NCBI RefSeq assembly: GCF_041415945.1
Contig: NZ_JBGCUS010000001.1
Coordinates: 4,124,501 to 4,188,500, forward strand
DNA: 64,000 nucleotides
Direction: 5' to 3'
From: Ancylobacter sp. IITR112
GTDB taxonomy: Bacteria > Pseudomonadota > Alphaproteobacteria > Rhizobiales > Xanthobacteraceae
Part shown: positions 425-12,604 of the stretch, piece by piece
Numbering within the stretch: the stretch's first letter is position 1
Layout: each line of letters starts with the position of its first letter
The notes under the pieces: generated by a model
Database searches by the model: none
What the model was told of the DNA's origin: nothing
Seen by the model: the letters and a program-made list of their open reading frames with translations, nothing else
Made by a program: the position numbers and the translations under genes

Positions 425-1681
425 TCAGCCCCGCGCCTGCTCCAGCAGCCGGCGCAGCACCGATTCCATCTCGGCGAGGTCGCTATAGACCACGGCGTAG
501 CGCGGGAGCCGCTCCAGCGTGTCGAAGAAGGCGTCGAGCTCGGCGGCGCCGGCGGGCTCGGCGAGGCCGAATTCGGCGTCCATCAGTTCCAGCAGCGCCC
601 GCGCCGGCCCGATGGGCTCGACCTCGGTGGGGCGGCCGGCCTCGAAACGGGGAAAGACCAGGCAGGCGAGGCGATTTTCCGGCCCGGCAGGTGGCATGTG
701 GCACGCCAGCGGCACCGGGAGATAGCAGCCACGCTTCTCGCCCGCGCCGATGCGCGGCTGGTCGGCGAGGCCGGGATAGAACGGCGCCAGCACATCCAGG
801 CTGCCGGACTTGAGATTGATCGCGCCCGGGCAGGGCAGCACCACCGCCTCGCCGCCGGCAAAGGCGATGGCCGGGCAATCATCCGTGCCGAAGCGCCAGC
901 CGCGCGCCACCAGATAGGCCGACAGGGTGCTCTTTCCCGCGCCGGAAATGCCCGCCATCATCAGCGTGCCGTCGGCGGTGGACAGCGCGGCGGCATGAAC
1001 GAACATCGCTGGCGGCGGGTCGCGATAGACGAGATCGAGCAGCCACAGATGCGACTTGCCCACCGCCTGCGACGCCTCGTCGGTGAACAGCCGGCGGGTG
1101 ACGGCCCCGCCCTCGACGCAGCGCAGGGTGAAGCCTTCTTCCTCGACGATGACATCGAGCGTGGCGGCAACCGGGTGGCGGGCGGGAGCGGGATCGAGAA
1201 AACCGCTGAAGAAACCCATCAGCCTTTCGCCGGTGGCAAGGCGCGATTGCATGCAGCCGGGGACGCTGGTCCCGCCGCGTCGGCGTCCGGTGGTGAGCAG
1301 GCGCAGGACGACGGAGGTTTCCGCCAGCCGGACCTGGCATTGCTGCAGCAGTTCCGCTGGACGGCTCTCCGGCAGCGGGGCGGCGGGGGGAGGCGCGGTC
1401 GCGCCGGCCGGAGCGGGGCGCAGCCGCACCCGGCCGGCGCCGTCGCGCTCGATCCAGCCGAGGTCTTCCCAGGCGCCGAGGCAGGCATGGACATCCTGCG
1501 CATCGAGCGCTGCCGTGCCCTCGCCGAGGGCGGCGGGCGCGGTGAACTGCTCCGGCAGCGACAGGAAGAGCCGCGCGGCGGGCGCGTTGAGCGCATGTGC
1601 CATTTCGGCGATCTGGTCGAAGACGAACAGCACGTCATCGAGCACGCGGAAATAGAAGCGCGGTTCGGCGGCGGAAATCAT
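425..1681 (-). CDS. PqqD-like / HPr-kinase-like fusion protein
   Basis: 418 residues. Residues about 7-85 resemble a PqqD-type peptide-binding domain (FVFDQIAEMAHALNAPAARL, then a helix ending in LGWIERDG). Residues about 165-410 resemble the HPr kinase/phosphorylase catalytic core: a P-loop GISGAGKST at 244-252, then GWRFGTDDCPAIA at 261-273, matching the paired Asp that follows the P-loop in HprK. HprK-related kinases of this type (as I recall, TIGRFAM HprK-related kinase A) occur next to separate PqqD-like and NTP_transf_5 genes; here the PqqD part is fused. Homologues ThcoK and PadeK phosphorylate the C-terminal Ser of lasso-peptide precursors. It lies downstream of five small peptide genes on the same strand, so they are the likely substrates. 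The start is the first ATG; the frame is open back to about 1765 but has no better start. Confidence 0.85.
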   Translation of the reverse strand: MISAAEPRFYFRVLDDVLFVFDQIAEMAHALNAPAARLFLSLPEQFTAPAALGEGTAALDAQDVHACLGAWEDLGWIERDGAGRVRLRPAPAGATAPPPAAPLPESRPAELLQQCQVRLAETSVVLRLLTTGRRRGGTSVPGCMQSRLATGERLMGFFSGFLDPAPARHPVAATLDVIVEEEGFTLRCVEGGAVTRRLFTDEASQAVGKSHLWLLDLVYRDPPPAMFVHAAALSTADGTLMMAGISGAGKSTLSAYLVARGWRFGTDDCPAIAFAGGEAVVLPCPGAINLKSGSLDVLAPFYPGLADQPRIGAGEKRGCYLPVPLACHMPPAGPENRLACLVFPRFEAGRPTEVEPIGPARALLELMDAEFGLAEPAGAAELDAFFDTLERLPRYAVVYSDLAEMESVLRRLLEQARG

Positions 1682-1800
1682 GTCGGGGTCGGTCGCCTCG
1701 TTCCTGCGGAACGCGCGCGGCGCGTGCCGATGCCTGCGGCGGCCCGGCCGTCGCGCAGCGTGTCATGGAAGCTGAATGTCATGGCAAAGGAAGCTGTCGC

Positions 1801-1860
1801 CTAGGGCGTTTTCGAGCGAAGCGGATACCGGTTCGCCTGCAGAAAACGCGACGAAACAAG
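1801..1860 (+). repeat. Rhizobiales-type intergenic repeat, copy 1
   Basis: The stretch begins CTAGGGCGTTTTCGAGCGAA, passes through a central GGTTCGC and ends in AGAAAACGC. Its reverse complement is closely matched at 62803-62880. I recognise this as a dispersed element common between genes in Rhizobiales. It sits between the last small peptide gene (E) and the kinase gene. Two arms (GCGTTTTC and GAAAACGC) are complementary, so it could fold as a hairpin within the peptide-kinase transcript. Confidence 0.65.
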
Positions 1861-1902
1861 GAATGAGATCACTGCATTTTTTCCGTGAAACGGTGAAATG
1901 AT

Positions 1903-2112
1903 CTAGCTGTCGGCGGCGGCGCGCCGGATCGACATGAGGCTGAGCGTGGCCGGCAGGCCATAGGCCGCGGCCTTGCCGAGCTGGCGCAGCGCGGCGCGGC
2001 GGCGTGTATCGGCCGTCAGCGGGGCGCTCGCGGGAGCCTGGCACATGGGAGCCTGGTCGGGCCGCGCATCGCGGTTCGGCTCGACGGGGCGACGGTCGGC
2101 GTCGGCGGACAT
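1903..2112 (-). CDS. Small conserved peptide E of the five-peptide array
   Basis: 69 residues. The ATG at 2110-2112 is preceded by GGAGA at good spacing and is preferred to an in-frame ATG 15 codons upstream. The N-terminal 35 residues are hydrophilic and variable. The last 34 residues carry the array consensus: RRRAALRQLGKAAAYG, then LPATLSLM, then RRAAADS ending in Ser followed by TAG. It is the last of five paralogues before the kinase gene. It diverges from A-C at several positions but keeps the RRR, LG, AA-Y, P-TL-LM and final Ser. No known family is recognised. It could be a modified peptide precursor or a small membrane-active peptide. Confidence 0.8.
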   Translation of the reverse strand: MSADADRRPVEPNRDARPDQAPMCQAPASAPLTADTRRRAALRQLGKAAAYGLPATLSLMSIRRAAADS

Positions 2113-2224
2113 ATCAGTCTCCGTTCGACAGGCGGCGGCGCCGCTGTCGGCCATCAATTATCGGCCGACCTTCACGGGTCGGGATGGAGCGCCCGCCGCC
2201 CGTGCCGCCGTGAGGCGGGGGAGG

Positions 2225-2419
2225 TCAGCTCGCGCGGGCTGAGCGGGGCATCATCATCAGGCCGAGGGTGACGGGCACGCCATAGGCGGCCGCCCGGCCG
2301 AGCTTCGCCAGCGCCGCGCGCCGGCGCGGATTTGGCGGCGCGCCACAGCCGGACGCGGCAGCCTCGTCGCCTTTGGCCGCCGGATCGCGTTCCGGGGTCG
2401 TATCACCGCTCGCTGCCAC
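2225..2419 (-). CDS. Small conserved peptide D of the five-peptide array
   Basis: 64 residues, most likely starting at GTG 2417-2419, which has GGAGG six bases upstream; a longer frame back to 2524 has no good ribosome site. The variable acidic N-terminal part contains one Cys (SGCGAPP). The conserved part is RRRAALAKLGRAAAYG, VPVTLGLM, then MMPRSARAS ending in Ser. It is the most divergent copy (MMMPRS replaces MSVRRA) but keeps the same spacing from the RRR to the Ser. It has its own ribosome site and lies 139 bases after C and 112 before E. Function unknown. Confidence 0.8.
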   Translation of the reverse strand: MAASGDTTPERDPAAKGDEAAASGCGAPPNPRRRAALAKLGRAAAYGVPVTLGLMMMPRSARAS

Positions 2420-2438
2420 GCCACGCCTCCATTGCCGG

Positions 2439-2455
2439 GCCCTCCGCCGGAGGGC
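2439..2455. repeat. Perfect inverted repeat upstream of peptide D
   Basis: GCCCTCC and GGAGGGC are 7-base perfect arms around a 3-base GCC centre, about 20 bases upstream of the peptide D start codon. There is no T-run, so it is not a typical intrinsic terminator. It could slow transcription, protect the mRNA end or control access to the D ribosome site. Confidence 0.5.
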
Positions 2456-2558
2456 GGGCGGATCCGCAAGAAGGTAGTACTGAACCATCAACGACCTTGC
2501 GTCAATCGCAGCGGCGCCGGCCACGCATATGCGGGTGTTTGGCGCCGCATTGTCAGCA

Positions 2559-2726
2559 TCAACTGGCAGCGGCGGCGCGGCGTACCGACATCAGCGCCAG
2601 CGTGGTGGGGACGGCATAGACGGCGGCGCGGCCGAGCTTGCGCAGCGTTTCGCGGCGGCGCTCGTCGGTTTCCGGCGCGGTGGCGGGCGTGCGCGTGCCG
2701 GCCGTGCCACCGTTTTCGCTGTTCAT
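2559..2726 (-). CDS. Small conserved peptide C of the five-peptide array
   Basis: 55 residues. The ATG overlaps the stop of gene B in an ATGA (2723-2726), so the two are translationally coupled. After a variable 19-residue N-terminus (MNSENGGTAGTRTPATAPE) comes DERRRETLRKLGRAAVYAV, PTTLALM and SVRRAAAAS, ending exactly at Ser. From DERRR to AAA the sequence is identical to A and B at the protein level, so the three are recent duplicates. The hydrophobic 13-residue core is flanked by basic residues on both sides, resembling a membrane-active or membrane-spanning helix. No known family is recognised. It is too short for routine gene callers and could be missed. Confidence 0.85.
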   Translation of the reverse strand: MNSENGGTAGTRTPATAPETDERRRETLRKLGRAAVYAVPTTLALMSVRRAAAAS

Positions 2727-2899
2727 CCCGGAATGCTCACGGCGGCGGCGCGGCGCACCGACATCAGCGCCAGCGTGGTCGGCACCGCATAGACGGCGGC
2801 GCGGCCGAGCTTGCGCAGAGTCTCGCGGCGGCGCTCATCCGTTTCGGCGGCCGTCGCGGGCGCGGCTTCCCCAGCCTTGTGTTCGATATCGTGGCTCAT
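2723..2899 (-). CDS. Small conserved peptide B of the five-peptide array
   Basis: 58 residues. It starts in an ATGA overlap with gene A (2896-2899) and ends in an ATGA overlap with gene C. The N-terminal 20 residues (rich in Glu, Ala and Thr) differ from A and C. DERRRETLRKLGRAAVYAV and PTTLALM are then identical to them. After SVRRAAAVS there are three extra residues, IPG, so the aligned Ser is not terminal here. The near identity of the conserved part with its neighbours shows recent tandem duplication, while the divergent N-termini argue for selection on the C-terminal block. Confidence 0.85.
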   Translation of the reverse strand: MSHDIEHKAGEAAPATAAETDERRRETLRKLGRAAVYAVPTTLALMSVRRAAAVSIPG

Positions 2900-3060
2900 G
2901 GCTCAGGGCTCGCAGCGGCGGCGCGGCGTACCGACATCAGCGCCAGCGTGGTGGGCACGGCATAGACGGCGGCGCGGCCGAGCTTGCGCAACGTCTCGCG
3001 GCGGCGCTCGTCGGTGGCGGGGGCCTTGTCGGTTTCGGGATTTGAGGGGAGCTGGGACAT
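2896..3060 (-). CDS. Small conserved peptide A, first of the five-peptide array
   Basis: 54 residues. This is the first gene of the minus-strand peptide unit; its ATG is at 3058-3060, preceded by a GAGATGGAT stretch. The variable N-terminus MSQLPSNPETDKAPAT leads into DERRRETLRKLGRAAVYAV, PTTLALM and SVRRAAAAS, followed by PEP before the stop. The stop overlaps the start of B. The aligned Ser of the family is present but followed by three residues. The basic-hydrophobic-basic pattern also resembles a Tat signal (RRxxL, hydrophobic run, Ala-rich end), but nothing follows for export, so an export signal alone is unlikely. Confidence 0.85.
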   Translation of the reverse strand: MSQLPSNPETDKAPATDERRRETLRKLGRAAVYAVPTTLALMSVRRAAAASPEP

Positions 3061-3259
3061 ATCCATCTCGTACTGACCGCAGGAAAGGCAGACGCGCAGA
3101 AATCACCTTCCTATGATACCTAAAAGGTTCTATGGCACCAGCGTTATTTGCGGCCACGAGAACATTGGGGCGGCTTGCCGGTCGCGACCTGGCCCCTTAC
3201 CGTCGCGTGGGCGCCGGCGACATTGGAGATGGCGCCCGCGCGTGGGCCCTGGAGGCGTG
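3061..3259. promoter_or_regulatory. Divergent intergenic region between peptide A and nucleotidyltransferase
   Basis: These 199 bases separate the minus-strand peptide genes from the plus-strand nucleotidyltransferase. Bases 3100-3150 are clearly richer in A and T than the surroundings. On the minus strand a TATCAT hexamer (3112-3117) could be a -10 element for the peptide operon; I see no convincing -35 partner. The nucleotidyltransferase has a strong GGAGG at 3251-3255. A shared bidirectional promoter would fit one joint system. Confidence 0.45.
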
Positions 3260-4330
3260 ATGTCACACCCGAATTCGGTCGACGCCCTGCGGCGGCTCTG
3301 CGTGCTGCTCTCGCCCTTTTCCACCACCGAGGCGGCGCGGGCGGCGGCCGCGACCATGCCGTCCTGGCCGGCGGCCCTCGCCCAGGCCGATATGCACCGG
3401 CTCATCCCCGCTTTCCATGTCGCCCTCGCGCGCCATGGCCTGGCCGATGCTGTGGACGCGGAGCTGGCCGAGGTGCTGGCGGCGGTGGCGGACTGGAACA
3501 CCGAGCGCAATACGGGCTTCCGCCGCCAGATGCGGGTGGTCAGCGCCGCCTTCAACGCCGCCGGCCTGGAGCCGGTCTGGCTCAAGGGGGCGCTCACCCT
3601 GCTGCCGCCCGATGGCCCGGCCGCCGGGCGCCAGATGATGGATCTGGATGTCTGGCTGCCGGAGGAGAGCCGGCAGCGCGCGGCGATGACTGTGCTGAAC
3701 GGCCTTGGCTACGGCTTCCAGGACGGCCTTGGTGGCTGCGCGCGGCATTACCCGCCCTTTTTCCATCCTGAGGAAATGGCGCGGATCGAACTGCATCGCA
3801 CCATTGTCGACCCCGACGAGACGCTCCTGCCGGTCGACGAGGCCGCGGCCGGCCTCGTCATGGAGGATTGGGAGGGGCTGCGGATCGCGCAGCTCGATCC
3901 GCTGTCGCGCGCCCTCTGCTCGCTGGCGCAATGCACCGACCGCCGGCCCGACCGGCTGGGCACGGCCGAAGTACCGCTCATGAAGGCGCTCGATTTCGTC
4001 GGGCGCATCCATGCCGATTTCGGCGGCGTCGTCCCGCCGGCGCTGGTCGAGCGCGCCGTGCGGGCGGGATGGGAGCGCTCGACCCAGCGCTTCCTCACGC
4101 TCACCGACAGCTATTTCGGCCTGCCGAACCCGTTTCCCTCCGATCCGGAACTGGTGCGGCTGCTGGAGCGCTTCACGCGCCGGCCGCGCTGGCACCACAC
4201 GCTCAAGGCTGCCCGTTCGCTGTTCGGCACGGGCGGGTGGGCGGCGCTGCGAGCGCCGGGCAAGGCGGCGAACATGGCGGCCTATTTCGTCGGCCGGCTG
4301 TTGGCGCCGGACAGGCCGGCCAAGCTTTAG
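3260..4330 (+). CDS. NTP_transf_5-type nucleotidyltransferase
   Basis: 356 residues starting at ATG 3260, four bases after GGAGG; the longer frame back to 3113 encodes low-complexity Arg/Gly sequence and is rejected. The signature is at residues 106-131: VWLKGA, then R124-QMMDLD with Asp128 and Asp130, matching the KGA...R..D.D metal-binding motif of the NTP_transf_5 family (Pol-beta superfold nucleotidyltransferases). The donor and acceptor are unknown for this family. As I recall, members accompany HprK-related kinases and PqqD-like proteins, and also occur in some lasso-peptide clusters. Here it is divergent from the peptide-kinase unit. It may nucleotidylate or otherwise modify the same peptides, or a phosphorylated product. 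Confidence 0.8.
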   Translation: MSHPNSVDALRRLCVLLSPFSTTEAARAAAATMPSWPAALAQADMHRLIPAFHVALARHGLADAVDAELAEVLAAVADWNTERNTGFRRQMRVVSAAFNAAGLEPVWLKGALTLLPPDGPAAGRQMMDLDVWLPEESRQRAAMTVLNGLGYGFQDGLGGCARHYPPFFHPEEMARIELHRTIVDPDETLLPVDEAAAGLVMEDWEGLRIAQLDPLSRALCSLAQCTDRRPDRLGTAEVPLMKALDFVGRIHADFGGVVPPALVERAVRAGWERSTQRFLTLTDSYFGLPNPFPSDPELVRLLERFTRRPRWHHTLKAARSLFGTGGWAALRAPGKAANMAAYFVGRLLAPDRPAKL

Positions 4331-5807: not shown

Positions 5808-8153
5808 CTACCGCCGCTTGAGCGCGTCCATCAGCGCGGCGCCGAGCGCGCCCTGCGGCGCCTTTTGCGGCTCGCGCGCCGGCGGACGGGGCCCGCGCGG
5901 GGGCGGGGAGGCATCGCGGGGCCCACGCTCGCCCTGCGGCTTCGCCCCGCCGGCGCCGGCATCGCGGCGCATGGAGAGCGAGATGCGCTTGCGCTTGAGA
6001 TCGACCTCCAGCACCCGCACCTTCACCACATCGCCGACCTTCACCACCTCATGCGCGTCCTTGATGAAGCGGTCGGCGAGCTGGGAGACATGCACCAGCC
6101 CGTCCTGATGCACGCCGATATCCACGAAGGCGCCGAAGGCCGCGACATTGGTGACCGTGCCTTCCAGCTCCATGCCGGGCTTCAGATCCTTCATGTCGTC
6201 GATGCCGTCGGTGAAGGTGGCGGTCTTGAAGGCGGGGCGCGGGTCGCGGCCGGGCTTGTCGAGTTCGGCGATGATGTCGCGCACGGTCGGCAGGCCGAAG
6301 CGCTCATCGACAAAGGCGGCGGGGTTGAGGCCGGAGAGCGCGGCACTGTCGCCCATCAGGCTGCGCAGGTCGCGCCCGCAGGCGGCGACGATCTTGCGCG
6401 CCACGCCATAGGCTTCCGGGTGAACGGCGGAGGCGTCGAGCGGCTCAGCGCCGTCGCGGATGCGCAGAAAGCCCGCGCATTGCTCGAAGGTGCGCGGCCC
6501 AAGGCGCGGCACGTCTTTCAGCTGCTTGCGGCTGGCGAAGGGGCCGTTGGCGTCGCGATGGGCGACGATGGCCTCGGCCAGCGAGGAGCCGAGGCCGGAG
6601 ACGCGCGCCAGCAGCGAGGCGGAGGCGGTATTGAGATCGACGCCCACCGCGTTCACTGCGTCTTCCACCACCGCGTCGAGCGCGCGGGCGAGGTGGTACT
6701 GGTCGACATCGTGCTGGTACTGGCCGACGCCGATCGACTTCGGGTCGATCTTCACCAGTTCCGCCAGCGGGTCCTGCAGCCGGCGGGCGATGGAGACGGC
6801 GCCGCGCAGCGACACGTCGAGGCCGGGGAATTCGGCGGCCGCGAGTTCGGAGGCGGAATAGACCGAGGCGCCGGCTTCCGACACCACCACTTTCAGCGGC
6901 TTGTTGCCGGCGGCGGACGGAGGGAGGGCGGCAAGGAGTTCGGCCACCAGCTTCTCGGTCTCGCGGCTGCCGGTGCCATTGCCGATGGCGATGAGATCGA
7001 CATTGTGCGCGCGGATGAGGCGGGCGAGTTCCGCTTGCGTGCCGCGCACATCGTTCTTCGGCTGGAACGGATAGACGGTGGAGGTGGCCAGCAGCTTGCC
7101 GGTGCCATCCACCACCGCGACCTTGACGCCGGTGCGGATGCCGGGATCGAGCCCCATGGTGGTGCGCGAGCCGGCCGGGGCGGCGAGCAGCAAATCCTTC
7201 AGATTGCGGGCGAAAACGTCGATGGCTTCCTTTTCTGCCCGCGCCCGCAGCTCGGTCATCAGATCGAGCGAGAGGTGGAGCGAGAGCTTGACCCGCCAGG
7301 TCCAGCCGGCGATCTCCAGCAGCCAGATATCGCCGGGCAGCTTGTCGCCGATGGCGTAGGCGTCCGCAATCATCCGCACCACGGGCTTGATCGGGCGGGT
7401 ATCCTCGGCGTCGACCTCGATCTCCAGCGCCAGCACGTCCTCGTTGCGCCCGCGCAGCATGGCGAGCGCGCGGTGGCTCGGAACGCCGGACCAGCGCTCG
7501 ACATGGTCGAAATAGTCGGAGAATTTGGCGCCTTCTTCCTGCTTGCCCTCCACCAGCTTGGCGCGCAGGAAGGCATTGGCGTGGAGATAGGACCGCAGCC
7601 GGCCGATCAGCTCGGCATTCTGTGCGAACTGCTCGGAGAGGATGTCGCGCGCGCCTTCCAGCGCCGCCTTCACATCCGCCACCTCGGCCGTGACATAGCC
7701 GGCCGCCAGCTCCGCCGGCACCAGTGCGCGGTCCGCGAGGATGGCGTCGGCCAGCGGGCCGAGGCCGCGCTCGCGGGCGATTTCCGCCCGGTTGCGGCGC
7801 TTGGGCTTGAAGGGGAGATAGATGTCCTCCAGCTCCGCCTTGGTGGTGGCGGCGGCGAGCGAGGCTTCCAGCTCCGGGGTGAGCTTTTCCTGCTGGCGGA
7901 TCGAGTCGAGGATCGCCGCGCGCCGGGACTCCAGCTCGCGCAGATAGACCAGCCGCTCATCCAGCCGGCGAAGCTGCGTGTCGTCCAGCCCGCCCGTCAC
8001 TTCCTTGCGGTAGCGCGCGATGAAGGGAACGGTCGCGCCCTCGTCGAGCAGGGCGATGGCGGCTTCCGCCTGCTGCGGGCGGGCGCCGATCTCTTGCGCG
8101 ATCGTCTGCGCGATCTGCCGGGCGGTGGCGGTGGCGAGGCTGCTGTCGGTCAT
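5808..8153 (-). CDS. tex: Tex family RNA-binding protein
   Basis: 781 residues. Order of domains: Tex N-terminal helical region ([20 protein letters not shown] at the start, [19 protein letters not shown]), YqgF/RNase H-like fold ([20 protein letters not shown]), helix-hairpin-helix region ([20 protein letters not shown]), and a C-terminal S1 domain ([20 protein letters not shown]). A Pro/Arg-rich disordered tail follows. Tex binds single-stranded nucleic acid and influences transcription; it is conserved in most bacteria. The ATG at 8151-8153 is chosen over a TTG twelve codons upstream because homologues begin near there. Single gene, convergent with the permease (12-base gap). Confidence 0.95.
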
Positions 8154-8260
8154 GCGGGCTATGGAATCGCGTGAAGGGAGGCGCGACAATATTCACTCGC
8201 AGACCGCAAGGCCACGCCGCGCACGGGCGGCGGCGTGGCTTGTGGATGAACTCGCCGTGT

Positions 8261-9979
8261 TCAGCCGATGAGCGGGAGGTAGTGATGCGGCTGGCGCATC
8301 GTCACCAGATCCTTGCGCCGCACCACATTGGTCGGGTAGGGCGTGTCAAGATTGGTGGTGTCGATCTCCGCCACCGCCACGCCTTCGCCGGCGGGAAGGA
8401 TGGCCTCGCGGCGCGGGAATTCGAAGGTGTCCGGCCCGAACACGCCGCTCTTGCCGCCATAGCCGGCGGCCTCATCCAGCACATTGGCGAAGGCGAGATG
8501 GACATTGTTCTCGCCCGCGCGCGCCCGCATCAGGTGCCAGTGATGCGGATCGGCGCCGGTGGGGATGGGGTAGTTCTGGGAAATCGCCGTGCCCGCATGG
8601 GCGGAGGTGAGGTTTCCGCGCAGCGCCGCCGGGCAGAGCACGAGGTCGCAGCCGCGCAGCGCCAGCACGCGCCCGGCCTCGGGGAAGGCGGCGTCATGGC
8701 CGATGAGCAGGCCGATACGGCCGAAGGTGGTGTCGAACACGCCCCACTCATTGCCGGGCGTCGCCCAATTATGGTCGGAGGCGTCGAGATGGGTCTTGCG
8801 GTAGCTGCCGATCACGCCCTGCGGACCGACCAGCACCGCGCTGTTATAGAGCGTGCCGCCCTCATCCTCGGCGAGGCCGGCGCAAAGATGCAGGCGGTGG
8901 CGTGTGGCGATGGCGATGAGCCGGGCGACCGCTTCCCCGTCCAGCGGCACGGCGGCGGGAGCGTCGAGGCCGGTGACGGCGCGCTCGGGGAAGACGACCA
9001 GCTCGGCGCCCGCCGCCCGCGCCTGCGCGGCCAGTTCCTCGATGCGGCCGAGATTGGCGTCAATGTCGCCGGTGGGGGCGAACTGCGCCACCGCCACCTG
9101 CGAGCGCCTTCCCTTGGGCAGCGGGCGGTGACCGTAGAGGCTGAAGAAGTCGAGCGGGTTCCAGGTGAAGGTGTTGGTCGGCAGCTCCATATAGAGCTCC
9201 GGCCGGCGCTGTTCGAACACCGGTTCGCCCAGCATGCGGCGGGCGCGGGCGCGTTCAAGGTCGATGTCGACGCAGGCGACGCCGTCGCCCGTGTCGATCA
9301 CCGCTTCGATGGCCCCGTCCGGGCCGATGACGCAGCTGCCGCCGGAGAACTGCACCGTGCGCTCCAACCCCCAGCGGTTGGATTCGATGAGGTAGCAGGA
9401 ATTCTCCATCGCCCGCGTGATCCAGTAGGGCGCGGGCGCGCGCTCGGCCAGCCAGTTGGAGATGTGGCAGATGATGTCCGCCCCGGCGAGGCCGACGAGG
9501 CGCGCGGTCTCGACGAAATGGATGTCCATGCACACCAGCAGGGCGATGCGGCCGATCGGCGTGTCGAACACGGCGTGGCCTCGGTCGCCCGGCGCCGACC
9601 ATTTCGGCTCGGCAATATAGGGGTGGGTCTTGCGGTGGGTGCCGACCACGCCCTGCGGCCCGATGAGCACGGCCGAATTGTAATAGAGGTTGGTGGTGGC
9701 ATCGACCTCAGGCATGCCGACGACGATGTAGCAGTCCTGCGCGCGGGCGATGGCCGCGAAGCGCTCCGTGGTCGGGCCGGGGATCGCCTCGACAAAGGGG
9801 GCGACCTCGGCGCGGTCGACCCAGCAATAGCCGGTCGTGCCCATTTCCGGCGTGACGATGAGCTTCGCGCCGGCGCCGGCAGCCTCGCTCACCAGCGCTT
9901 CCAGCCGGGCGATGTTGCGCTCCTTCTCGAACATGGTCGGCTCGAACTGGACGGTCGCGACCTTCAGCGTGGCGGTCAT
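8261..9979 (-). CDS. Tandem-domain carbon-nitrogen hydrolase (nitrilase superfamily)
   Basis: 572 residues made of two nitrilase-fold domains, about 5-280 and 290-565. The first has the full Glu-Lys-Cys triad: TPEMGTTGYCW, THRKTHPYI and LLVCMDIHFVE. The second keeps Glu (FPERAVTG) and Lys (YRKTHLDAS) but has LLIGHDAAFPE, so His stands where the catalytic Cys should be, and it is probably inactive or structural. The family cleaves amides, nitriles or carbamoyl groups. As the last gene of the amiC1-to-formamidase operon it most likely hydrolyses an amide imported by the neighbouring transporter. Start ATG with GGAG upstream. Confidence 0.88.
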   Translation of the reverse strand: MTATLKVATVQFEPTMFEKERNIARLEALVSEAAGAGAKLIVTPEMGTTGYCWVDRAEVAPFVEAIPGPTTERFAAIARAQDCYIVVGMPEVDATTNLYYNSAVLIGPQGVVGTHRKTHPYIAEPKWSAPGDRGHAVFDTPIGRIALLVCMDIHFVETARLVGLAGADIICHISNWLAERAPAPYWITRAMENSCYLIESNRWGLERTVQFSGGSCVIGPDGAIEAVIDTGDGVACVDIDLERARARRMLGEPVFEQRRPELYMELPTNTFTWNPLDFFSLYGHRPLPKGRRSQVAVAQFAPTGDIDANLGRIEELAAQARAAGAELVVFPERAVTGLDAPAAVPLDGEAVARLIAIATRHRLHLCAGLAEDEGGTLYNSAVLVGPQGVIGSYRKTHLDASDHNWATPGNEWGVFDTTFGRIGLLIGHDAAFPEAGRVLALRGCDLVLCPAALRGNLTSAHAGTAISQNYPIPTGADPHHWHLMRARAGENNVHLAFANVLDEAAGYGGKSGVFGPDTFEFPRREAILPAGEGVAVAEIDTTNLDTPYPTNVVRRKDLVTMRQPHHYLPLIG

Positions 9980-11151: not shown

Positions 11152-11865
11152 TCAGACGGCGAGATGGCGGCGCATCGCCTCGCCATCGGCGAGGTCCTCG
11201 CGGGTGAGTTCGGCGACGACGCGGCCCTTGTCCATGACATAGCAGCGCTGGGCCATGGCCCGGATCATGTCGATGTTCTGTTCCACCAGCACCACGGTGA
11301 CGCCGGTATCGGCGTTGAGCTGCACCATGATGCGGGCGATGTCCTGCACGATATTGGGCTGGATGCCCTCCGAGGGTTCGTCGAGCAGGATGAGCTGCGG
11401 ATTGGCCACCAGCACCCGGCCGATGGCGAGCTGCTGCTGCTGCCCGCCGGACATGGTGCCGGCGCGCTGGCTCCAGCGCTCGCGCAGGATGGGGAAATAG
11501 CCGAGCACGCGCTCGCGGTCGGCCTCGCTGACGCGGCCCGCGCGCATGCCGCCGACCGCGATGTTCTCGCCCACGGTCAGGCGGGGGAACACGTCGCGGC
11601 CCTGCGGCACATAGCCGATGCCGAGCCGCGCCCGCCTGAAGGCGGAGAGGTGCTCCACCGGCCTGTCGCCGAAGACGATGGAGCCTTCCATCGCCGGCAC
11701 GAGGCCGATGAGGCTCTTCATCAAGGTGGACTTGCCGACGCCGTTGCGGCCGATGACGGCGACGATCTCGCCCTGGCGCACCTCGATGTCGAGCCCCTGC
11801 AGCACCGGCTTGCCGCCATAGCCGGCGCGCAGGCCGAGGGTGGACAGCATCACTTCCTTACGCAT
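11152..11865 (-). CDS. urtE: Urea/short-chain amide ABC transporter ATPase (UrtE-like)
   Basis: 237 residues from ATG 11865, which has GAGG upstream and overlaps the end of the previous gene by 8 bases; an extended frame upstream is rejected. Walker A is GRNGVGKST, the Q-loop region YVPQGRDVFPRLTVGEN is LivF/UrtE-like, the signature is MSGGQQQQLAIGR (rather than the usual LSGGQQQ), and Walker B is LILLDEPSEGIQPN. SEGIQPNIVQDI is typical of UrtE proteins. It is one of two cytoplasmic ATPases energising the importer encoded by the same operon. Confidence 0.9.
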   Translation of the reverse strand: MRKEVMLSTLGLRAGYGGKPVLQGLDIEVRQGEIVAVIGRNGVGKSTLMKSLIGLVPAMEGSIVFGDRPVEHLSAFRRARLGIGYVPQGRDVFPRLTVGENIAVGGMRAGRVSEADRERVLGYFPILRERWSQRAGTMSGGQQQQLAIGRVLVANPQLILLDEPSEGIQPNIVQDIARIMVQLNADTGVTVVLVEQNIDMIRAMAQRCYVMDKGRVVAELTREDLADGEAMRRHLAV

Positions 11866-12604
11866 GGGCGGCCTCGTGAGCGGTTTCGTGCGCCGTGGTC
11901 TGGCCGAGATAGATGGCGGCGACATCCTCATTGGCGACGATCTCGTCGATGGAGCCCTGCGCGAAGACGCGGCCGAGATGCAGCACCGTCACCTTGTGCG
12001 CGACCTGGCGGACGAAGGCCATGTCGTGCTCCACCGCCAGCACGGTCATGCCCTCGGCATTGAGCCGCTTGACCATTTCGCCGGTGGCATGGGTCTCTTC
12101 CGGCGACATGCCGGCGGTCGGCTCGTCGAGCAGCAGCAGACGCGGCTTGAGGCTGACCGCCATGCCGATTTCCAGCCACTGCTTCTGGCCGTGCGAGAGA
12201 TTGCCGGCGAGGCGCGTGGCATCGGTGGTCAGGTTGAGGAAGTCGAGCAGCGTGTCGATCTCGCCTTCCAGCACCGCCGGCGGGTAATGGTGCTGCATGG
12301 CGATTTCGAGGTTCTGCCGCACGCTCAGCGCCTTGAAGATGCCGGGCACCTGGAATTTCACGCTCATGCCGCGGCGGATGCGCTGGAACGGCTTGAGGCC
12401 GGTAATGTCCTCGCCACCGAACAGGATGGCGCCGCTGCTCGGCACATGCTCGCCAAGGATCAGCCGGAACAGCGTCGACTTGCCGGCACCGTTCGGCCCG
12501 ATGAGGCAGTGCACCTCGCCGGCCTGAAGCGTCAGGTCGACATTGTTGGTGACGTGCAGCCCGCCGAAGCGCTTGTTGAGGCCTTTGGTTTCGAGCATCG
12601 GCAT
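11858..12604 (-). CDS. urtD: Urea/short-chain amide ABC transporter ATPase (UrtD-like)
   Basis: 248 residues. The start ATG at 12602-12604 shares its A with the TGA of the permease gene, so translation is coupled. Walker A GPNGAGKST, signature LSHGQKQWLEIGMA (the SHGQKQWLEI form is characteristic of UrtD), Walker B LLLLDEPTAGMSPEET, and the switch His in VLAVEHDMAFV. The tail TTAHETAHEAAHA is His/Ala-rich with no known role. The fifth residue block and length fit the LivG/UrtD family. Confidence 0.9.
   Translation of the reverse strand: MPMLETKGLNKRFGGLHVTNNVDLTLQAGEVHCLIGPNGAGKSTLFRLILGEHVPSSGAILFGGEDITGLKPFQRIRRGMSVKFQVPGIFKALSVRQNLEIAMQHHYPPAVLEGEIDTLLDFLNLTTDATRLAGNLSHGQKQWLEIGMAVSLKPRLLLLDEPTAGMSPEETHATGEMVKRLNAEGMTVLAVEHDMAFVRQVAHKVTVLHLGRVFAQGSIDEIVANEDVAAIYLGQTTAHETAHEAAHA

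Follow-up and report, generated by a model that had tools for sequence, protein, structure and literature searches.

The 64,000-nucleotide stretch of Ancylobacter sp. IITR112 analysed here (contig NZ_JBGCUS010000001.1, positions 4,124,501 to 4,188,500; hereafter the window) carries near its start five small paralogous genes, a gene for a PqqD-like/HprK fusion kinase, and a divergent nucleotidyltransferase gene. These genes probably (at a probability of roughly 70%) encode a linear, non-lasso phosphopeptide pathway of the class of ribosomally synthesized and post-translationally modified peptides (RiPPs). The alphaproteobacterial product would be similar to the linear polyphosphorylated peptides (LPPs) of Bacillota, with the recognition domain inside the kinase and a core consisting of little beyond the acceptor residue; both the binding of the peptides and their phosphorylation are predicted. 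The locus itself is real and conserved, and it is coding by its statistics. An earlier reading made from the letters only (the sequence-only reading) had proposed the five genes, the fusion and the divergent gene, and all of them were found where it had placed them:

2896..3060, minus strand: small peptide 1, 54 aa (...YAVPTTLALMSVRRAAAASPEP); an alternative start at 3066 is possible
2723..2899, minus strand: small peptide 2, 58 aa; ATGA overlap with gene 1
2559..2726, minus strand: small peptide 3, 55 aa, C-terminal Ser; ATGA overlap with gene 2
2225..2419, minus strand: small peptide 4, 64 aa; GTG start after GGAGG; C-terminus RSARAS
1903..2112, minus strand: small peptide 5, 69 aa; ATG after GGAG; C-terminus RRAAADS; closest to the kinase gene
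425..1681, minus strand: PqqD-like/HprK fusion kinase, 418 aa; TIGR04352 at E = 1.8e-22, under the cut-off
1406..1681, minus strand: PqqD/RRE-like N-terminal domain of the kinase, residues 1–92, beta-beta-beta-alpha-alpha-alpha, assigned from relatives, profile comparison and predicted fold
428..1024, minus strand: HprK catalytic core, residues 220–418
926..952, minus strand: P-loop GISGAGKST, residues 244–252; columns G244 and S246–T252 invariant in alignment A3
878..883, minus strand: paired Asp267-Asp268, invariant in alignment A3
3260..4330, plus strand: NTP_transf_5 nucleotidyltransferase, 356 aa, divergent from the peptide array; PF14907 at E = 1.5e-23

The five peptides are 54–69 aa long, and the first two pairs of genes (1–2 and 2–3) are coupled through the ATGA overlaps. 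Their alignment has 19 invariant columns, which include RRR, LxxLG, AAxY and PxTLxLM, as had been read from the letters. The final motif RxAxxS is also invariant, but only in three of the five peptides does the aligned Ser form the C-terminus; the two others extend past it by PEP and IPG. In 351 pairwise comparisons among 27 core segments of 31 residues from the window and its relatives, which are not independent, the proportion of nonsynonymous differences (pN) was lower than that of synonymous differences (pS) in 341 pairs in the coding frame, versus 111 and 40 pairs in the two shifted-frame controls. For the three near-identical window copies, pN was 0.00–0.02 and pS 0.18–0.32. As far as such statistics can tell, this contrast between the frames makes it very likely that the small genes encode proteins kept by purifying selection. 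They matched no Pfam family above the cut-off and no NCBIfam family at E ≤ 1.

The kinase carries the P-loop GISGAGKST, His229 and the Asp267-Asp268 pair, all of them unchanged across the 15 sequences of alignment A3 (the window included) except for the second loop residue, which is I or V; the HPr-kinase core assigned by the sequence-only reading is confirmed. The protein matched HprK_rel_A (TIGR04352) with E = 1.8e-22 and 79.7 bits, under the 200-bit cut-off, and its structure was predicted with a pLDDT of 88 and a pTM of 0.86. The N-terminal domain of the window kinase had no Pfam match to PF05402 (PqqD) at E ≤ 1 and reached PqqD_rel_X at E = 0.12 only; the score against TIGR04353 was 13.3 bits (cut-off 35). 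In related kinases, PF05402 was found above the cut-off in two fusion orders, N-terminal to the kinase (L017, L018, L019 and L143) and C-terminal to it (L147 and L162). A profile of the N-terminal domain of the window family aligned by hhalign with stand-alone PqqD proteins of HprK_rel_A loci at E 4e-5 and a probability of 70%, versus 0.7% for the kinase part; this PqqD profile included 12 proteins, of which 10 were scanned and all 10 passed the TIGR04353 cut-off. Foldseek placed the lasso complexes of leader and RiPP recognition element (RRE) 5v1u and 5v1v at ranks 1, 2, 4, and 5 for the predicted domain (E 6e-3 to 3e-2), although fold comparison alone cannot separate RRE from other winged helix-turn-helix folds. 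The PqqD part of the fusion is thus backed by the relatives and the profile comparison, and the predicted fold is compatible with it. The stand-alone PqqD protein of locus L079 was typed by NCBIfam and missed by Pfam alone; a PDB sequence search with the PqqD domain of a relative returned nothing at E ≤ 1, and PF27840, precomputed for some relatives, gave no match when two of these were rescanned against Pfam.

The pairing of the peptides with these enzymes, the core of the proposal that they are the substrates, is supported by co-occurrence, adjacency and fusions. In a family set of 198 genomes (kinase by the A3 model at E ≤ 1e-20, peptides at E ≤ 1e-3), the kinase was present in 9 genomes and the peptides in 10. 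Five of the 12 genomes of the genus had the kinase; all five also had peptides, and none of the seven kinase-free genomes did (Fisher test, 0.0013; 0.003 without the genome of the window). In a class set of 385 genomes (kinase by the A6 model at E ≤ 1e-20, with the best five candidates per genome scored), peptides were found in 17 genomes, the kinase in 53 and both in 16, that is, the kinase accompanied the peptides in 16 of 17 genomes versus 37 of 368 others, and in 15 of 16 versus 37 of 368 without the genome of the window (p = 2e-13). The A6 model was built with kinases from 8 of the 17 peptide-positive genomes; among the nine outside its construction, 8 had the kinase (p = 2e-7). At 25 tabulated kinase loci, picked from the kinase and peptide searches and not a random sample, a peptide was found within 4 kb in 24, on the same strand as the kinase in 20, and in 19 of these 20 within 200 bp between open frames. 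These loci include Ancylobacter, Bosea, another Hyphomicrobiales bacterium, Methylococcaceae (two near-identical contigs), Mariprofundus and Thalassotalea; not only in Ancylobacter but also in several other groups of proteobacteria, the peptide lies directly upstream of the HprK-related kinase. In a set of 27 kinase loci it did so in 11 (L012–L022), and L031 has it in fused form on the opposite strand. Of the 25 tabulated loci, 18 had NTP_transf_5, once cut by the contig end and once as a 123-residue fragment. The latter belongs to A. polymorphus (G022; L012/L165), which has an intact open frame for the kinase but degenerate-looking peptides (Ser to Arg, Tyr to Asn), possibly a case of joint decay.

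Every one of the five window peptides has a YxxP motif, and in each a Ser follows its Pro at a distance of exactly 15 residues (P+15). The canonical HprK_rel_A loci, with kinases above the TIGR04352 cut-off, occur in 60 of 398 phylum genomes and were examined in 58 of them (18 + 40; two are contig-end fragments). Upstream of their PqqD and kinase genes they often encode an unnamed small twin-Arg protein of the form RRxLLKGL..P..TL..GAALAxxS with a long tail (L078–L095 and L170–L208; for example L079 6873–7361, L083 2505–3101, and L174 2183–2755). A pattern excluding the Ser, applied to the 800 bp upstream of the canonical kinases, matched in 29 of 58 loci, further variants being visible by eye, and was enriched there (29 of 227 upstream open reading frames versus 11 of 2,774 elsewhere); the twin-Arg protein is a candidate substrate of the orphan HprK_rel_A system. 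In the 29 anchored precursors so found, P+15 is Ser in 23 (Ala in 3, Ile, Thr, and Glu in one each), versus 29 Ser in 348 other column positions between P+9 and P+21; after clustering, Ser is the majority residue in 18 of the 23 clusters formed at 60% identity and in 12 of 17 at 50%. By our own count on the LPP motif YxxPxVLxHQxIxFETxxS, the proven phospho-Ser3 likewise stands at Y+18/P+15, as in the five window peptides (PMC13381572). When 20 PF14907 loci of Bacillota were searched with a YxxP pattern, no precursor of the LPP type came up, the matches being paeninodin-like by eye (L241 and L249) or unclear, so the LPP spacing is taken from PMC13381572 only. This spacing makes the aligned Ser the best candidate for the phospho-acceptor, as the sequence-only reading had proposed.

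We suggest that the PqqD-like domain would hold each peptide at its YxxP segment, as the recognition domains of lasso peptides and LPPs do, that the tethered HprK core would then phosphorylate the Ser at P+15, and that the PF14907 nucleotidyltransferase would finally, as is likely, modify the phosphate by attaching a hexose or a nucleotide to it. Of this scheme, the genes, their coding conservation, the adjacency of peptide and kinase, the two PqqD fusion orders and the YxxP...S spacing come from the sequences; binding to YxxP is predicted by analogy, and the Ser at P+15 is a predicted acceptor. A nucleotidylation as the second step, proposed by the sequence-only reading, gained no support: in pseudomycoidin the phosphate receives hexose, and deletion of lppN in the heterologous LPP host had no visible effect (PMC13381572).

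A number of observations weigh against the phosphopeptide reading. In Ancylobacter-type peptides, P+15 is Ser in 25 of 30 (Cys in one, Arg in one, Pro in two, and one peptide a residue short), but this count is biased, since the search was seeded with the five Ser-bearing peptides. When the canonical precursors were clustered at 40% identity, Ser was the majority in only 2 of 4 clusters. In 26 more divergent precursor-like rows, exactly P+15 was Ser in 7 and Thr in one only; most others carried a Ser or Thr at some position between P+14 and P+20, and three had none there. The Ser is also not universal in paralogues: a C-terminal Cys (SARAC) occurs in several related peptides, Arg in one and the ending GPCSFC in two, a Bosea paralogue ends in Tyr, and the rule of a C-terminal Ser in all peptides was rejected on account of the paralogues ending in Cys, Tyr or Arg. 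Since LppK did not phosphorylate the S3T and S3Y variants (PMC13381572), the Cys, Tyr and Arg paralogues are perhaps no substrates, or the acceptor idea is incomplete. The window-type peptide profile reached the canonical precursors at best with an unconvincing E of 0.01 (L085), and the link between the two groups therefore consists of motif, spacing and gene order. NTP_transf_5 was not found at 7 of the 25 tabulated loci, and no leader peptidase, including a SipW-like one, was found among the six neighbouring genes scanned. The sequence-only reading had also considered that such kinases might always lack the peptides, or that the peptides might commonly lack the enzymes. Neither pattern holds in close relatives, but no peptide was found in 15 of the 27 kinase loci, mostly weak kinase-core matches, or with the kinases of G097/L145 and of 37 class genomes. 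Likewise, at nine distant class-level peptide loci there was no kinase in the fetched stretch, although 8 of these genomes have one elsewhere. The remaining genome, G684, with a weak peptide match, has no kinase anywhere; this match (L159, E 7e-4) was rejected as a likely false positive, lying in an odd reading frame in a genome without a kinase at E ≤ 1e-5.

The strongest competing explanation, which we put somewhat below even odds, is a phosphoglycosyl peptide like pseudomycoidin: the kinase would make phospho-Ser and the PF14907 enzyme would transfer a sugar to it, perhaps providing a primer or anchor for a surface polysaccharide. Its precedent is the pair PsmK, which phosphorylates the C-terminal Ser, and PsmN, which adds one or two hexoses onto the phosphate (reviews PMC8498205 and PMC9266682), although one review leaves room for nucleotidylation followed by a host glycosyltransferase. 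XrtA/PEP-CTERM exopolysaccharide genes lie near canonical HprK_rel_A loci (one representative typed per cluster), relatives of an HldE-typed gene (one representative) were found in 7 of 49 loci, and LPPs are often co-localized with capsule loci (PMC13381572). On the other hand, no polysaccharide gene was found among the six genes adjoining the window locus, and LppN was without effect in the LPP host. A surface-glycan role of the peptides is plausible and no more, because related machinery lies in polysaccharide contexts and LPPs near capsule loci.

A wider version of the phosphopeptide reading is tentative and, in our view, clearly short of an even chance: the window would be the smallest form of a widespread, unrecognised group of Pseudomonadota phosphopeptides. 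In it the RR..LG..YxxP leader would double as PqqD docking site and export or membrane segment, and the Ser at a fixed distance would be phosphorylated and sugar-capped. The HPr-rel-A system, formed by the TIGR04352 kinase, the TIGR04353 PqqD protein and PF14907 and present in 60 of 398 sampled genomes, would run on this same machinery but with large tails; the peptides of the window would act as anchors encoded by genes, with a single modified Ser, at the C-terminus or close to it, as their sole cargo. The RR..LxxLG..YxxP leader-like segment is shared among relatives and the tails differ: there are no or three residues past the Ser in the window, and collagen-like, PSRPSGPS, SKESKPS, KPTKPT, GGGSGG or Cys-rich sequences elsewhere. 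In L031, an acidobacterial contig encodes two precursor-like proteins in tandem (7396–7980 and 7984–8826, minus strand) close to an HprK-like gene. In the first, a PqqD domain precedes an RR..P..AxA-Ser segment, which is followed by a collagen-like repeat, with PF05402 and PF01391 above the cut-off; the second resembles it by eye. The tails of L148 and L152 consist of KPTKPT or SKPSKES repeats with many potential acceptor residues. Alphaproteobacterial peptides with PSPC- or CPPPxGxC-type tails were observed near genes of the HldE cluster, typed on L153 only, at L149, L150, L151, L153, L155 and L157, four of which had no kinase in the fetched stretch.

An unlikely alternative is that the peptides serve chiefly as twin-arginine (Tat-like) or membrane-inserting signals, with the enzymes acting on another target or on the segment as an export control and the Ser merely following a signal-peptidase-like AxA. 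The segment does combine RRR...LxKLG, a hydrophobic stretch, basic residues and an AxA-like end, and the canonical HprK_rel_A precursors resemble Tat signals (RRxLLKGL...ALA/xxS, the slash marking the AxA boundary) with tails of roughly 100–150 aa, the P+15 Ser being residue 3 after AxA. However, none of the five window peptides matched a Tat signal model (TIGR01409 or Pfam TAT) at E ≤ 1, and of ten related precursors (nine canonical ones and L097) one reached TIGR01409, at 0.028 and under the cut-off. For these ten no NCBIfam family scored above its cut-off, and for nine of them Pfam gave nothing at E ≤ 1. The window peptides have at most three residues past the Ser and therefore almost nothing to export, and the YxxP...S spacing recurs in the LPP leader, in a motif that lacks the twin Arg. 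The Tat-like and the phosphopeptide readings can both be true together. A regulatory or conflict module, in which five short hydrophobic peptides, toxic or signalling, are held inactive through phosphorylation, is a long shot: the patchy presence (5 of 12 genus genomes) and the tandem diversification would suit it, but no sensor or immunity gene was recognised among the six neighbours checked, and elsewhere the precursor tails vary between a single residue and some 150 aa, a range hardly tolerable for a toxin family.

The divergent nucleotidyltransferase proposed by the sequence-only reading was confirmed by a PF14907 match (E = 1.5e-23, 84.1 bits, cut-off 31.2); a PDB sequence search with it returned nothing at E ≤ 1. 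PF14907 matches were present in 21 Bacillota genomes, and in 14 of 20 loci an HprK-like gene was found in the fetched stretch, which supports the pairing of this enzyme with the kinase. The six neighbouring genes checked are of ordinary types and encode an FCD regulator, a CitMHS permease, Tex, a CN_hydrolase, FmdA and an ABC ATPase; the last is at 11155–11931, about 7 kb past the nucleotidyltransferase gene, and no MsbA-like exporter lies directly at the locus. The absence of a lasso cyclase from the window also held, since all six Asn_synthase matches in the genome lie elsewhere, and a lasso peptide as the product was rejected. Three further HprK-like stretches are located at about 2.00, 3.715, and 3.755 Mb of C1 of the same genome (L260, L261, and L262), each at most about 5 kb from an asparagine-synthase-like gene. 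A sulfotransferase gene follows the L260 and L262 stretches, and the L261 synthase matched the lasso cyclase model under the cut-off. These are likely lasso-type clusters with kinases, coexisting with the peptide array.

The analysis names a testable substrate for the set of HprK-related kinase A, PqqD and NTP_transf_5 enzymes and a concrete rule, a Ser 15 residues past the Pro of YxxP or an equivalent Pro, that links the alphaproteobacterial arrays, the canonical HprK_rel_A loci and the phosphorylated LPPs. If the proposal is true, such phosphopeptide RiPPs are not limited to Bacillota, and the RRE-kinase fusion is a single-enzyme system for phosphorylating a peptide tail. Literature searches, with most subscription papers and bioRxiv outside their coverage, found no substrate of this enzyme set and nothing linking exosortase with HPr kinase; on HprK and RiPPs, only the LPP paper looked relevant. 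Term searches of PMC7470986 and PMC12710340 gave no match for kinase.

Compared with known systems, the locus shares with HPr-rel-A the HprK-related core, the PqqD-like domain, NTP_transf_5 and an upstream twin-Arg precursor with Ser at P+15. It differs in having the kinase and PqqD fused instead of separate and peptides without a long tail; assignment to HPr-rel-A was rejected, with both parts under their cut-offs (79.7 bits versus 200 for TIGR04352 and 13.3 versus 35 for TIGR04353). The PqqD family PF05402 is approached in the predicted winged helix-turn-helix fold and in domain position in relatives, but the window domain is below Pfam detection. Like the paeninodin and pseudomycoidin lasso systems, the locus combines a kinase acting, here by prediction, on a C-terminal Ser, a nucleotidyltransferase partner (in some of those clusters) and a [Y/W]xxP leader (PMC8498205 and PMC9266682), but there is no macrolactam cyclase in the window, and the product would be linear. 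The closest likeness is to LPPs, a non-lasso family described in May 2026 in Bacillota, to which its authors consider it restricted (PMC13381572). Both have an HprK-like kinase, an RRE or RRE-like domain and an NTP transferase (uncharacterised in LPPs, PF14907 by profile for the window gene), require no lasso cyclase, and have linear precursors with YxxP, variable tails and Ser at Y+18/P+15. In LPP systems the RRE is a discrete protein, and the one to three precursors are accompanied by a SipW-like leader peptidase and an MsbA-like transporter. The window has a PqqD/RRE-like domain as the kinase N-terminus, no such peptidase among the six genes scanned, an ABC ATPase gene about 7 kb past the nucleotidyltransferase gene, and five precursors with 0–3 residues past the Ser, in which RRR..LG replaces the missing HQ..FET part of the LPP motif. 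Assignment to LPP was rejected by the discrete-RRE, peptidase and motif tests. The claim of an undescribed peptide-modification system was nevertheless too strong, because a non-lasso HprK-kinase/RRE/NTP-transferase family had already been published. The kind of system is known; what is new here is that it is alphaproteobacterial, with a kinase-fused recognition domain, five precursors and almost no core.

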